Source of the DNA: Rhodopseudomonas julia
GTDB lineage: Bacteria; Pseudomonadota; Alphaproteobacteria; Rhizobiales; Afifellaceae
Direction of reading: 5' to 3'
Length of the DNA: 64,000 nucleotides
Assembly: GCF_030813515.1 (NCBI RefSeq)
Contig: NZ_JAUSUK010000001.1
Span: forward strand, 1,426,001 to 1,490,000
The position numbers and the translations under genes are program-made. Positions within the stretch are counted from its first letter, which is position 1, and the number at the start of each line of letters is the position of its first letter. This document shows, piece after piece, positions 19,406-26,315 of the stretch. A model generated the notes under the pieces. The model saw nothing but the letters and a program-made list of their open reading frames with translations. It searched no databases and had not been told where the DNA came from.

Positions 19406-20182
19406 ATGGTTCAGCTGACTCTTCCGAAAAACTCGACAGTTCACCGCGGCAAGGTCTGGCCGAAGCCCGCGGGCAGCAAACACAAGGAATTCCAGATCTA
19501 TCGCTGGGATCCCGAAGACGGCCGCAACCCACGTCTCGATACCTATTATGTCGATACGGACGATTGTGGACCAATGGTTCTCGATGCCCTGTTGTGGATC
19601 AAGAACAAGGTCGACCCGACTTTGACGCTGCGCCGCTCCTGCCGGGAAGGCATTTGCGGCTCCTGTGCCATGAACATCGACGGATCGAATACGCTCGCCT
19701 GCACGACGGGCTGGGGCGATATCCACGGTGTCGTCAAGATCTACCCGCTGCCGCATATGCCGGTGGTGAAGGATCTCGTGCCCGATCTGACGCATTTCTA
19801 TGCGCAGCATGCGCTGATCGAGCCGTGGCTGCAGACGGTGTCGCCGACACCGGAAAAGGAGCACCTGCAGAGTCATGAGGATCGCGAAAAGCTCGACGGG
19901 CTCTACGAGTGCATTCTTTGCGCCTGCTGCACGACGTCTTGCCCGAGCTATTGGTGGAACGGAGATCGGTATCTCGGCCCGGCCGCACTTCTGCAGGCCT
20001 ATCGCTGGATCGTCGATTCGCGTGACGAGCGCACCGGCGAACGTCTCGATCAGCTGGAGGATCCGTTCCGGCTTTACCGGTGCCACACGATCCTGAACTG
20101 CGTGCAGGTGTGCCCGAAGGGTCTCAACCCGGCGAAAGCGATCGGTGAAATCAAGAAGATGATGGTTGAGCGGCGCGTCTGA
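19406..20182 (+). CDS. sdhB: Succinate dehydrogenase iron-sulfur subunit
   Basis: SdhB of 258 residues passes electrons from the flavoprotein SdhA to ubiquinone through three iron-sulfur clusters. All ligands are present: CREGICGSC plus a later Cys for [2Fe-2S], [14 protein letters not shown] for [4Fe-4S], and [17 protein letters not shown] for the [3Fe-4S] cluster and the quinone-side elements. The length is normal. Unusually, sdhC, sdhD and sdhA do not lie upstream: only 165 bp separate it from a divergent ThDP enzyme gene. SdhB must therefore be expressed from its own promoter, with the other subunits elsewhere. A strong terminator follows 58 bp after the stop. Confidence 0.97.
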
Positions 20183-20275: not shown

Positions 20276-20293
20276 CGTGTCTTGTGCGGCGAT

Positions 20294-22438
20294 CTAGATG
20301 ATCGGCGAACCCTGCGGGAAGAGCCAGGTGCCGCCATCGGCCCACTGGCGCTCCGGCAGGCGGGCGCGGATCCACTTCACCATCGCGTAGTAGAAGCTTT
20401 CCTCGCTGCGCGCCGGTGTGCGGGCCGCAATCGGAGCCTGGGCGGGCGTCTGCACAGGCCGCTGCTGGCGAACCTGGATCGGCCGTCCGGCCTGGCGCGG
20501 AACACTCGGAACCGTGCGATAGACACGCGCACCATTCTGAGCGTTTGCCTGGGCCGTGTGAGCCGCCGGCTTCTGCTGCGCAGCACGCACGCTCGGGAAG
20601 AGCCAGGACGAACCATTCACGCTCGTCTGTGCCACGCCATTTGCTCGGGCAGCCGCCGGGGCACGGCTGGGTGCCTGCTGCGGCTGTGCCTGGCGGGTTG
20701 CACGGATCGGCGCTCCGGCATTCGAGCGGTAGAGATATCCCGCCGTCGCGACACCGTTCGTGGCGCGAGCGGACGCGGCCTGGCGACCATTGGCCTGCTG
20801 CTGGGCCGGCTTTGGCGCCGTCTCTGCCTGTGCACGCTGATGTGTGCCCGGGAAGAGCCAGCTGCCACCGTTTTGTGCCGCGCGGGCTGGTGCCCTCTCA
20901 CGACTTGGTTGTGTGGCCGTGCGGAAAAGCCAGCTCGTCTGGCCTGCACTTGCGGTTCCTGCCGTCCTGGCCGGTTGCTGTTGGGCAGGTTTGCTGTTGG
21001 TCTGAGCCTGGGCGCGCGCATGCGTGCCTGGGAACAGCCAGCTTCCGCCCCTCACTGCCGGCTGTGTCGGCTGTTTGGCAGACGTCTCTGCGCCGTTCTG
21101 TTTCTGCGCGCCGTTCTGAATCGTGGCATTGCGATAAAGCCAGCTTCTCTGCGGCGCGCTGTTGGTTGCCGGCGATTGCGCTTGCGATTCGGCTTCGACG
21201 GCCTGGCCGCGCCCATTCGGGAAAAGCCAACTGCTGCGCTGAACCACCTGTTGGGCGGGTTTTGCCGCCTCGGCTTGGCCGTTGGTCTGCGCTGCGCCAT
21301 TTCGGGGTGCGGCGTTGCGGTAGAGCCAGCTCGCCTGCGGAGCGCCGGTCTGGCGTGCAGGCTCGGAATTCTGGCTCGATGCCTGCTGCTGAGGCGCAGA
21401 ATTGCGATAAAGCCAGCTCACCGGCGCCTGGGGTTTCGCCGGCTCGGCCTTTGCATCTTCCTTCGCCTTGGAGCTGCCGGTGAACCAGCTGCTGATCGTC
21501 TCGAAGGGCGAACCGAGCGCCGATGCTTCCGCCTTGCCCTTTTCCTTGGCTTCGGAGGCAAGACGGTAAACCCAGCTCATCACCTCGGCCGGGGCCGACT
21601 GCTCGGGCTCTTCGCTCTCCTGCGGCGCAGGCTTGCGATAGAACCAGCCCTGAGGGGCCGACACCGCGGTGTCCTTGAGCGCCGCCTTGCCGTTTGCATG
21701 GCCATTCGCCTTGCCGTTTGCCTGTGCGGCTGGCGTACGGAAGAGCCAGCTCGAGGGGGTCGCGGCGGGCGCAGCCTGCGGAGCGGGGGTTGCCGTGCCG
21801 TTTGTCTGCGGCGCGGCGGGCTTACGGTAAAGCCAGCTCGGAGAGGTTTGTTCTCGAGCCGGTGGTGCGGCTTTCGCCGCGGCGGCGGGACTCTGGGCAG
21901 GCGCGCTCCGCGCCTGTGGGAAGAGCCAACTGCCACCGTTGTTTGGCGCTCGGGCCGGCTGGCCGCGCGCGCCATTCACCGGTTGGGTGGCGGGCATCAT
22001 GTTCCTCGTGTTGATGGGCTGAGAGGCTGAGCGGTTCGCGGACGGGCGAAAGGGGGGATTGCCCCCGTAGGCCGACCTTGGGTGGGGCGCCTGCGATTGA
22101 CGGGCCGGGCGCGCGGCCGGAACTTGATTGTCGTGCGAAGGAGCAGCGGAAGCGGGGCGCGCTAAGCGCGGCCTAAGCCAGCTCGCCTGCTGTTCGTCGG
22201 CGCGGCGATCACCGCGCGAGACCTCGGGGTTGTGCGTGTCGCGCTTCGCGGGAGCCCTGGCTGGCGGATTGGACGCGAAAGCCTCCCCGTCAGGGCGGGC
22301 TGCCGGCCCGTCCTCCCGATTGAGACGGCTCTTCAGGTTCCGACGGAAGAGATCAACCATCTCCCGCATCGGCTTCTGCAGCCGTTTGGCGACCATGTCC
22401 TCCATCGAGAGGCCCTGCCTTATCGCGATCGTCATCAT
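20294..22438 (-). CDS. Low-complexity protein with about 16 SWLFP/SWLYR tryptophan repeats, function unknown
   Basis: I do not recognise this 714-residue protein. Residues 1-40 form a predicted amphipathic helix (MTIAIRQGLSMEDMVAKRL) and the last 35 residues (SEESFYYAMVKWIRARL onward) another. Between them the chain is rich in Ala, Pro, Gln, Asn, Arg and Ser and probably disordered. Tryptophan motifs occur at residues 87, 171, 202, 231, 265, 289, 318, 342, 371, 404, 433, 467, 503, 527, 612 and 705, with Trp-less forms near 568 (YLYR) and 640 (VYR). They come in two classes, WLFP and W-L/F/V-Y/F-R. There is no signal peptide or membrane span, so a cytoplasmic scaffold or condensate-like role is possible but unproven. 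The ATG at 22438 is chosen; an in-frame TTG lies at 22453, and no clear ribosome binding site is visible for either. It converges with sdhB. Confidence 0.8.
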   Translation of the reverse strand: MMTIAIRQGLSMEDMVAKRLQKPMREMVDLFRRNLKSRLNREDGPAARPDGEAFASNPPARAPAKRDTHNPEVSRGDRRADEQQASWLRPRLARPASAAPSHDNQVPAARPARQSQAPHPRSAYGGNPPFRPSANRSASQPINTRNMMPATQPVNGARGQPARAPNNGGSWLFPQARSAPAQSPAAAAKAAPPAREQTSPSWLYRKPAAPQTNGTATPAPQAAPAATPSSWLFRTPAAQANGKANGHANGKAALKDTAVSAPQGWFYRKPAPQESEEPEQSAPAEVMSWVYRLASEAKEKGKAEASALGSPFETISSWFTGSSKAKEDAKAEPAKPQAPVSWLYRNSAPQQQASSQNSEPARQTGAPQASWLYRNAAPRNGAAQTNGQAEAAKPAQQVVQRSSWLFPNGRGQAVEAESQAQSPATNSAPQRSWLYRNATIQNGAQKQNGAETSAKQPTQPAVRGGSWLFPGTHARAQAQTNSKPAQQQPARTAGTASAGQTSWLFRTATQPSRERAPARAAQNGGSWLFPGTHQRAQAETAPKPAQQQANGRQAASARATNGVATAGYLYRSNAGAPIRATRQAQPQQAPSRAPAAARANGVAQTSVNGSSWLFPSVRAAQQKPAAHTAQANAQNGARVYRTVPSVPRQAGRPIQVRQQRPVQTPAQAPIAARTPARSEESFYYAMVKWIRARLPERQWADGGTWLFPQGSPII
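20315..22183 (-). repeat. In-frame dispersed repeat encoding W-L-[FY]-[PR]
   Basis: On the plus strand the DNA shows recurring 12-15 base cores such as GGGAAGAGCCAGCTGCC and CGATAAAGCCAGCT roughly every 70-110 bp. Each core encodes one motif copy. Two neighbouring copies beginning GGSWLFPGTH (residues 465 and 525) continue with similar RAQ and KPAQQQ stretches, indicating a more recent internal duplication of about 60 residues. Confidence 0.85.
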
Positions 22439-22783
22439 GTCGAAGAAACGCAACAGGAGTGCAGCCGCATGAAATCTGGCCGGCTTCGGCCAACTTCGGC
22501 GATTGCAAGAGGGATTCTACAACGATTCACGCCTTTTCTCCAGGAGAGGTTCTGATCGAAACGGTCGCGGAGGCGAATTGAGTCGCAATCATGGTGGTCG
22601 CGTGCCGCCGGAACCGCCGAAGAGCGCGCTTTCTTTCCCTCCTGTCCGCGCGCTTGTGCCGCTGCGCAGCGGAACGCGGCGCTCAGCGGTGCATGCGCAA
22701 GGACAAACGGTGCGGGCATTCAAGTTTCCCTTCGAAAGCACGCCTGGAACGTGGCTTTTCAATCCACTGACACCGGCGAGTCT

Positions 22784-22811
22784 AACCTGTCAAGAATCCT
22801 CCAGACAGGTT
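22784..22811. promoter_or_regulatory. 8-bp inverted repeat, possible operator
   Basis: AACCTGTC (22784-22791) and GACAGGTT (22804-22811) form a perfect dyad with a 12-base spacer. It lies 41 bp from the CtrA-type box in the same AT-rich stretch. The cognate regulator is unknown. Confidence 0.45.
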
Positions 22812-22851
22812 TCGCACTCTACTGACTCTGGATCATGTCAGCGAATATTTC

Positions 22852-22867
22852 TTAATGAATAATTAAC
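22852..22867. promoter_or_regulatory. CtrA-type binding box TTAA-N7-TTAAC
   Basis: TTAA (22852-22855), seven bases, then TTAAC (22863-22867) matches the full consensus of the alphaproteobacterial cell-cycle regulator CtrA. A further half site TTAACC starts at 22887. The target could be the Trp-repeat gene (start 22438) or the VOC gene (start 23262). Both are about 400 bp away, so an intervening transcript is possible. Confidence 0.5.
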
Positions 22868-23261
22868 GCTAGTAATATGGGAAGTATTAACCAAACTGAA
22901 CCGCACGAGGCAGAGTCATCATAGACTGCTCGACAAAGGAGTCGGTTCCAGCGCGAACAAGTTGTGGTGGGTCGCGTGAGCACGGATCAGGCGAAAAGTG
23001 ATTGCGCCATACCTGCTATCGAGGTCGTCGATTTTGTCAGGTCCGCGCTTCCTTCGGACGCTATCGCCGCCAATTTTCGGCGCAAAAGCCCGCAGAACCG
23101 CGCGAATTGATTCGCTTTCCAGGCAAAAAGGAGGATGAGCTCGGTACGGAGACGTTCCCCATAGCGGGGGTGAAGCCGAGGCCGCCTCGCACCTGGCGAC
23201 AATATCCGCAGCGCGTTTCGTCTCGTCTCGAAGATGTGGCTTACGAAGGAAAGCGCCGGCA

Positions 23262-23651
23262 ATGATCGACCATCTCGGCATCACCGCAAGGAATTTCGCG
23301 GCCTCTCGGCTCTTCTATGAAAGAGCTTTGGCGCCGCTGGGCATGAATGTGGTCATGGCGCTCGGCAAGGAAGAAACGGGCGGCTATGAAGGCGCGGGCT
23401 TCGGCGCCCACGGGAAACCCTGCTTCTGGGTCCAATCCGTGCCGAACGGTCAGGTTTCTGGCGTTCATGTGGCCTTTGCCGCGGCCGACAGGGCCGCTGT
23501 CGACGCGTTTTACCGCGCCGGTCTCGCAGCCGGTGGACGTGACAATGGCGCACCCGGGCTGCGGCCCCACTACCACCCGAATTATTACGGCGCCTTCGTT
23601 CTCGATCCTGACGGCAACAATATCGAAGCAGTCTGCCACCAGCCCGAATAA
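23262..23651 (+). CDS. VOC family (glyoxalase/bleomycin resistance-like) protein
   Basis: This single-domain protein of 129 residues has the vicinal oxygen chelate fold. The opening MIDHLGITARNFAASRLFYE and the closing FVLDPDGNNIEAVCH are the typical first and last strands of each paired beta-alpha-beta-beta-beta module, with the metal ligands His (residue 4) and Glu near the end. Family members include glyoxalase I, extradiol dioxygenases and fosfomycin resistance proteins; nothing here selects a substrate. It is convergent with msrB. Confidence 0.9.
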   Translation: MIDHLGITARNFAASRLFYERALAPLGMNVVMALGKEETGGYEGAGFGAHGKPCFWVQSVPNGQVSGVHVAFAAADRAAVDAFYRAGLAAGGRDNGAPGLRPHYHPNYYGAFVLDPDGNNIEAVCHQPE

Positions 23652-25742: not shown

Positions 25743-26315
25743 ATGTCGCATTCCTGGCGCGCGATCGCCGTATCTGCCGCGCTCGCTGCCTCCCTCGCCG
25801 CCTGTCAGTCCGCTTATTTCGGCGGCCAAAGCAACAACGGCTATTCTCCCCCTCCGCCGCCGCGGCCGCTGGCGGCAGCGCCGGTGGGAACTGTGTCGCA
25901 GAGCGAGCTGCCGCCCCCGGGCGGGGCGAACGCCGCTAACGATCCGATGATGGGCGAACCGCCGGATCTCCGGCCGGGCGCGGACGGCACCGTGCAGACG
26001 GCGACTGCTACGCCTCCATCTTCAGGCGGCGCACCGATCGGCCGCACAGATCTTCTTGGCGGCTGGACGGTGTCCTCCGGCGGCGACAGCTGTCAGCTGT
26101 TCATGTCTTTGACGAGCTGGTCGGGTGGCTATCGGGCCTCGACCCGTGGCTGCACGTCGCCGGCGCTGCAGGCTGTCTCCGCCTGGAACCTCTCAGGCAA
26201 TCAAGTCACGCTGCTTGATCAGGGCAGCAGCACGGTCGCTCGCCTCTATTCGACCTCCAAAACTCAGTTCAATGGTCAAACAGAGGCAGGTGCCGCAATT
26301 TCAGTCGCTCGTTAG
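25743..26315 (+). CDS. Omp19-like outer membrane lipoprotein, protease inhibitor (Inh) family
   Basis: This lipoprotein of 190 residues has a signal peptide ending in the lipobox LAAC (Cys21), a Pro/Gly/Gln-rich linker of about 80 residues, and a C-terminal Inh-type beta-barrel (about 100-190, starting TDLLGGWTVSSGGDSCQLF). Two cysteines in this domain (SCQLF and RGCTSP) would form the disulfide expected for the family. Brucella Omp19 is the best-known homologue and inhibits host proteases. Here it is more likely a general envelope lipoprotein that binds or inhibits secreted proteases. It is divergent from the acyltransferase. Confidence 0.9.
   Translation: MSHSWRAIAVSAALAASLAACQSAYFGGQSNNGYSPPPPPRPLAAAPVGTVSQSELPPPGGANAANDPMMGEPPDLRPGADGTVQTATATPPSSGGAPIGRTDLLGGWTVSSGGDSCQLFMSLTSWSGGYRASTRGCTSPALQAVSAWNLSGNQVTLLDQGSSTVARLYSTSKTQFNGQTEAGAAISVAR

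Follow-up and report, generated by a model that had tools for sequence, protein, structure and literature searches.

A tryptophan-motif array under selection in a protein so far found only in Afifella, probably a multi-point tether or scaffold

Introduction

What is the function of a protein that carries the same short tryptophan motif over and over along a chain of 714 residues? This question is raised by a gene in a 64 kb stretch of DNA (the window, i.e., the whole stretch that was analysed) from a species of Afifella close to A. marina. A sequence-only reading had described an unknown protein with about 16 spaced SWLFP/SWLYR-type motifs, embedded in a disordered chain with helical ends, and had proposed that the motifs serve multivalent binding, possibly of two partners via two motif classes.

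Several systems offer themselves for comparison. Multivalent linkers of the EPYC1/CsoS2 type have short repeated motifs that are spaced along a disordered chain, the EPYC1 motif being [DN]W[RK]xx[LIVA]. Polar scaffolds like PopZ are disordered, alphaproteobacterial, and active in a cell-cycle context, although to our knowledge a motif array is not part of PopZ. Condensates are formed by, e.g., PopZ-like polar proteins or RNase E bodies.

In this study, the gene model, the motif array, the promoter region, and the distribution of the gene were assessed by genome comparison, and the possible modes of action of the protein were weighed against each other.

Results

Gene model and predicted structure

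The chain of 714 residues was confirmed, and the gene, for which no strand had been given, lies on the minus strand (Table 1). Its start codon is uncertain, with ATG 22438, TTG 22453 (resulting in 719 residues), or a later ATG as the candidates. Orthologues fall into a short form, present in the own genome of the window (G000), A. marina DSM 2698 (G001), and G002, and a long form, present in A. pfennigii DSM 17143 (G003) and Afifella sp. IM 167 (G004). Whole-gene dN/dS across the three pairs of short-form species (0.23-0.28) supports the coding status. A plus-strand ORF (20282-22030) that overlaps the gene was taken as a mirror frame, given the purifying selection on the minus-strand codons.

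No matches at E<=1 were obtained with the window protein in either Pfam or NCBIfam, in line with the earlier view that it belongs to no described family. In an AlphaFold2 single-sequence model (mean pLDDT 40.3), helices were predicted for residues 12-41, 284-305, and 679-693, and almost nothing else. The 714-residue chain is thereby predicted to be largely disordered with helical ends, as had been read from the sequence, single-sequence models being weak evidence. The SWVYRL of the central helix is also present in the Afifella sp. IM 167 protein.

Table 1. Features of the tryptophan-motif gene and its surroundings (positions in the window)
Feature	Position	Strand	Remarks
sdhB, succinate dehydrogenase iron-sulphur subunit, convergent neighbour	19406..20182	+	Pfam Fer2_3 E 6.4e-31, Fer4 matches; name by eye
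Tryptophan-motif CDS	20294..22438	-	714 aa from ATG 22438, stop included; open in three species, dN/dS 0.23-0.28
SWL[FY][PR]-type motif array, residues 87-708, Ala/Pro/Gln/Arg-rich basic chain	20315..22180	-	14 strict motifs; motif codon dN/dS 0-0.06
C-terminal predicted helices, residues 679-702	20333..20404	-	AlphaFold2 (helix 679-693); sequence missing from both long forms
Central predicted helix, residues 284-305, contains SWVYRL	21524..21589	-	AlphaFold2
N-terminal predicted helix, residues 12-41	22316..22405	-	AlphaFold2; overlaps stretch matching end of long-form DUF4760 region
94-codon leader ORF, other frame	22435..22719	-	TGA overlaps main-gene ATG in 3/3 short-form species
Probable decayed DUF4760 remnant	22454..22561	-	in-frame TAG common to three short-form species
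Five GANTC sites around box	22778..22943		three common to 5/5 orthologues
TTAA-N7-TTAA box, CtrA-type	22852..22866		aligned in 5/5 orthologues
Glyoxalase-family protein, divergent neighbour	23262..23651	+	Pfam PF00903 E 6.1e-8

The tryptophan motif array

The window protein contains 18 tryptophans, 14 of which lie within a strict W-[LIVF]-[FY]-[PR] motif (six WLFP, four WLYR, two WLFR, one WFYR, and one WVYR), and all 14 are preceded by Ser, Thr, or Gly. With a mean of 0.02 and a maximum of 2 strict motifs in 2000 residue shuffles, the array is far from a matter of composition, and the multivalency that had been proposed is borne out by this number as well as by the motif-focused selection described below. 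The degenerate sites SWLRP and SWFTG and the Trp-less YLYR bring the total to 17, making the previous estimate of about 16 a fair one. The spacing of 24-44 residues given along with it applies from the second site to the WLFP at residue 612, but not to the outer sites, which are 84, 77, and 16 residues apart.

Across the five orthologues, 13-16 strict motifs are found per protein (15 in the A. pfennigii tail and 16 in that of Afifella sp. IM 167), and the net charge of the tail ranges from +43 to +58. Of 45 motifs, 36 have Ser at position -1 and 41 have Leu at +1, while the restriction of +2 to Phe/Tyr and of +3 to Arg/Pro is fixed by the motif definition used. When one motif DNA pattern was searched for, all 10 sites in the own genome were located inside the tryptophan gene, as were 9/9 in G001, 8/8 in G002, 10/10 in G003, and 10/11 in G004; four genomes from other genera of the family have one site each. 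Of the six WLFP sites in the window protein, three have Pro retained in both of the distant orthologues, and the other three show Arg in at least one of these. This interchange weakens the idea that two motif classes bind two different partners.

Selection on the motifs was compared with that on the linkers in the three pairs of short-form species, among which dS is 0.25-0.32. The 75 motif columns have dN/dS values of 0.057, 0, and 0.064, as opposed to 0.25, 0.33, and 0.29 for the 571 linker columns; Fisher tests on the nonsynonymous differences in motifs versus linkers gave p = 4e-4, 5e-7, and 4e-3, for pairs that are not independent and counts that are small. Between G000 and G004, 34 of 50 columns are identical in the motifs versus 118 of 493 elsewhere, a comparison that favours the motifs, since their columns were picked for bearing a motif. 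One motif unit present in the other two short forms is missing from G002. Neutral drift of the motifs, which had been put forward as an argument against a binding role, was not seen, and judged by these codon comparisons, the tail is under purifying selection that is strongest at the motifs.

Long and short forms

The long forms (1020 residues in G003 and 998 in G004) are composed of a hydrophobic stretch, a DUF4760 domain (PF15956; 33.3 bits in the family search for G003 and 30.4 bits for G004, at a cut-off of 25), and then the motif tail. In both, the hydrophobic stretch, located by eye, comprises about 30 residues. They thereby resemble DUF4760 membrane proteins, a family in which an N-terminal transmembrane helix before the domain is usual. 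In the three short forms, the part joined to the tail is no more than a stretch (RFFDMMTIAIRQG) with a match to the end of the DUF4760 region. The window protein has no Pfam DUF4760 match (0 families at E<=1) and, by eye, no N-terminal transmembrane helix, and the upstream frames have stops in all three short-form species.

The two Afifella long forms differ from the other DUF4760 matches listed in that the latter, judged by frame length, have no motif tail: among the matches listed in 297 genomes of the order, the open frames comprise 150-276 codons, too short for a tail, and one exceptional frame of 647 codons is run-on sequence without motifs. Three Afifella genomes have a second DUF4760 match (G003:C10:70350-70901, G002:C2:973189-973434, and G004:C6:100542-100802), in frames of 271-276 codons that are likewise too short. 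Comparison of the DUF4760 part with solved structures gave a best E of 0.22, and the AlphaFold2 model of the long-form N-terminus (pLDDT 54.5) was too poor for a fold search.

Upstream of the short-form gene, a probable remnant of the domain can be traced. With the G004 protein as the query, tblastn across the junction gave E 1.5e-9 to 2.9e-9, but about 20 residues of this match belong to the retained part. For the upstream DNA alone, the G004 query gave E 7.7e-4 to 5e-3, values that 4 of 300 shuffles attained for G000, 7 for G001, and none for G002, and the G003 query performed more weakly (74, 50, and 0 of 300 shuffles). The match lies in the correct frame and place, and the promoter box is almost equally far from the FFD residues in both forms (~420 vs ~440 bases). 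The short form probably arose by shared loss in the A. marina clade, for which the evidence is fair but not strong, and such a loss would make the N-terminal cap a domain remnant. The C-terminal helix is peculiar to the A. marina clade, as both long forms lack it and end in SWLYRQP. The helical caps described earlier are thus not what defines the protein, with the motifs being conserved and the caps not.

The leader ORF that precedes the short-form gene gained no support as a translated peptide (dN/dS 0.68, 0.96, and 1.92; 20% of shuffles also open), and translational coupling to the main gene is possible.

The promoter region

The TTAA-N7-TTAA box upstream of the gene is a single copy in the window, where 0.02 are expected under a first-order model, and one of 12 in the own genome. 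In the short form, it is positioned 413-414 bases ahead of the TTG, compared with 131-133 bases in the long form, and the five aligned boxes differ between the two clades in the seven inner bases. Since it is also present in A. pfennigii, where the glyoxalase gene is not adjacent, the box goes with the tryptophan gene. The surrounding GANTC cluster makes up the densest 250 bases of the window for such sites, which are a mark of CcrM/GcrA-type promoters. Between 22674 and 22873, 191 of 200 bases are identical in the three short-form species, versus 14-34 per 40 further upstream; this region includes an AGAGTCA...AGGATTCTTGACA block that is also found in the long-form species.

Three of the 11 other boxes in the own genome were seen before division or wall genes, namely, ~50-55 bases before the ftsK and PBP1-family frames and just before ftsE. 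Their positions are G000:C1:1413948 (ftsK, L111), G000:C1:1283254 (PBP1-family, L109), and G000:C1:1710584 (ftsE, L112). Boxes that are the same as or very similar to those of ftsK and ftsE occur in all five Afifella genomes, the downstream genes having been read in G000 only. Among the neighbours seen of the remaining eight own-genome boxes, which were scanned in part, there are no division genes, and one of these boxes is located inside a cheY frame. Counts of the bare box against a reversed control were 12/9 (G000), 13/13 (G001), 13/9 (G002), 18/10 (G003), and 19/8 (G004), i.e., the genome-wide excess is slight or absent in the short forms and clear only in G003 and G004. The excess was clearer when a trailing C was included, at 11/1 (G000), 13/4 (G001), 18/9 (G003), and 17/3 (G004), with G002 left out; in the window box, however, the trailing C and the gene are on opposite strands.

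All five Afifella genomes encode a CtrA equivalog that exceeds its cut-off. In the available text of the sources, the CtrA motif is given as TTAA-N7-TTAA for Caulobacter and as TAA-N7-TTAAC for Sinorhizobium, with ftsE and ftsK as targets that have motifs (PMC3616915, PMC4287350). The own-genome boxes before ftsK and ftsE agree with these motifs and targets. CtrA control of the tryptophan gene therefore appears likely from its upstream sequence, and we infer that its expression may be timed by CtrA/CcrM. Points against such timing are the small share of own-genome boxes seen at division or wall genes and the slight or absent excess of the bare box in the short-form species.

Distribution and neighbourhood

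Using the window protein as the query, matches were obtained in four of 61 genomes (own included), all of one genus (G000, G001, G002, and G004), and G003 was missed. When 63 residues of DUF4760 sequence from G004 served as the query, 5 of 11 genomes of the family matched, this time including G003. With these two queries, the tryptophan gene was not found in the six family genomes of other genera. The window protein is 87% identical to its A. marina counterpart. At the level of the order (397 genomes), paired motifs 60-90 bases apart occur in 15 genomes, and the five Afifella have 4-7 matches each; the one or two matches in each of the ten non-Afifella genomes were read as chance, as one or two matches of the reversed control are equally common. 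At the level of the class (385 genomes), a profile search returned the own genome and two matches, which by their profile span of 22-162 and their open frames of 163 and 177 codons look like tailless DUF4760 proteins. By these searches, an orthologue is present in all five Afifella genomes found and so far only in Afifella.

In the window and in G004 (where genes were named by eye), the gene order is sdhB, the tryptophan gene, glyoxalase, msrB, and then rhodanese and/or acyltransferase. The G003 contig ends soon after the gene and has msrB, rhodanese, and acyltransferase upstream without a glyoxalase; in that genome (L030, 6716-7544), the glyoxalase gene is missing between msrB and the tryptophan gene, which it adjoins in the other four. 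Outside the genus, glyoxalase and sdhB are ~800 bases apart in G005, leaving no room for the tryptophan gene. Further along the window (25743-26315, plus strand), a putative lipoprotein with a protease-inhibitor Inh domain (PF02974, E 5.4e-18) is encoded near mdh and sucC, as named by eye.

Reaction-centre genes are present in 7 of the 11 family genomes and the tryptophan gene in 5. Phototrophy was rejected as the explanation of this distribution; in another genus of the family, there are two phototrophic genomes without the gene.

Discussion

The protein is real, under selection, so far genus-restricted, and multivalent, and it is probably a multi-point tether or scaffold with a control region that resembles those of cell-cycle genes. 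As the best explanation, to which a probability of roughly 40% is given, it is proposed to be a disordered, cell-cycle-timed tether on the cytoplasmic side that grips the membrane via repeated insertion of SWL[FY][PR]. The tether would be synthesised at a defined cell-cycle stage. Each motif would then bury its Trp-Leu-Phe/Tyr at an anionic membrane surface, while Arg/Lys of the motif and the linkers contact the head groups, so that fourteen weak contacts add up to one strong, sliding grip, which could bridge or decorate inner or photosynthetic membranes. Such a grip would explain the upkeep of a form without a transmembrane anchor. The cytoplasmic location of the tail is suggested by a positive-inside reading of the anchor and, for the short form, by the lack of an evident signal peptide, each judged by eye.

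Membrane insertion is placed first, by a small margin, because of the precedent of the VPS37A WLFP, the scale energies, the basic chain, and the two membrane-anchored orthologues. On the Wimley-White interfacial scale, all strict motif pentapeptides of the five proteins come out as favourable for a membrane surface, with a mean of -2.68 kcal/mol for the window protein, and the tails are on average unfavourable per residue. On the same scale, stretches of <= -1.5 kcal/mol are motif-like in 17/18 cases in G000, 18/19 in G001, 17/17 in G002, 18/19 in G003, and 19/22 in G004. The weaker match of the upstream remnant leaves the odds of this mechanism unchanged, as it does not rest on the remnant.

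Within the literature found on SWLFP/SWLYR-type motifs and tryptophan-rich repeats, only the work on VPS37A bears on the protein, and the DUF4760 literature found does not deal with it. According to the available text of that work, human VPS37A binds curved anionic liposomes through WLFP in its disordered N-terminal segment; replacement of this tetrapeptide by DDDD cuts liposome binding by ~90%, a construct with two WLFP raises it by ~650%, anionic lipid is required, and binding depends partly on residue order (PMC10942982). The likeness thus lies in an identical tetrapeptide in a disordered segment, of which a second copy strengthens binding in VPS37A. The differences are that VPS37A, a human ESCRT-I subunit, has a single WLFP, and that an array and an Arg variant are not described for it in that text. 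VPS37A is eukaryotic and unrelated, and homology with the tryptophan-motif protein is not expected.

What counts against membrane insertion is that the motif is more stereotyped than insertion needs, and fits a binding pocket as well or better. The protein may instead be a multivalent docking hub, in which each SWL[FY][PR] acts as a short linear motif recognised by a pocket in a single cytosolic partner. The tail would collect numerous copies of that partner, at the membrane in the case of the long form and in the cytosol in that of the short form. This tentative alternative is nearly as likely, kept in contention by the prevalent Ser at -1, which argues for a pocket, by the stereotyped residues from there to +3, by the motif-specific purifying selection, and by the maintenance of the copy number in all five proteins while the linkers diverge. 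The repeated short motifs spaced along a disordered chain are also reminiscent of the EPYC1/CsoS2-type linkers, but the EPYC1 motif is found in none of the 18 Trp contexts of the window protein. The docking hub is weakened in that no partner is indicated: sdhB, glyoxalase, and msrB resemble a fixed block of the chromosome, and the glyoxalase gene does not adjoin the tryptophan gene in A. pfennigii.

Self-association in a sticker-and-spacer scaffold, with a condensate arising from contacts among the motif Trp/Tyr/Phe and Arg residues, is unlikely. The even spacing of aromatic motifs in a low-complexity basic chain and the predicted disorder would suit it; generic aromatic stickers, however, need no fixed S-W-L-[FY]-[PR] order, and aromatics outside the motifs are few in the window protein. 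PopZ-like scaffolds share the disorder, the alphaproteobacterial host, and the cell-cycle context, but the window protein has no family match in Pfam or NCBIfam.

A more specific version of membrane binding is a genus-specific, CtrA-timed polymer with about fifteen membrane-inserting motifs that acts as a membrane glue, by which the lamellar photosynthetic membranes at the poles of Afifella cells would be stacked or positioned; this is a long shot. In A. marina and A. pfennigii, lamellar membranes are restricted to the pole and the determinants of this localisation are described as unknown in the available text of the source (PMC6030561), and no such protein was found among the papers listed on intracytoplasmic-membrane scaffolds. 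Given the two phototrophic genomes without the gene in another genus of the family, a membrane glue would have to be a lineage solution. Lastly, the reading of the short form as a decaying pseudogene of a DUF4760 protein, to which the stops upstream of the retained part in all three species would point, is highly improbable and was rejected on account of selection across ~700 codons that stay open in the three species at the above dS and dN/dS values, motifs above all, and by the conserved promoter elements.

If the proposed tether or scaffold holds true, bacteria would gain a multivalent short-motif scaffold in which the motif is defined, repeated, easily mutated, and under apparent cell-cycle control. 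The long membrane-anchored and short unanchored forms of one tail in sister species would constitute a natural experiment, and the way in which Alphaproteobacteria place membranes or proteins at fixed sites in the cell would become directly testable in non-pathogenic purple bacteria.
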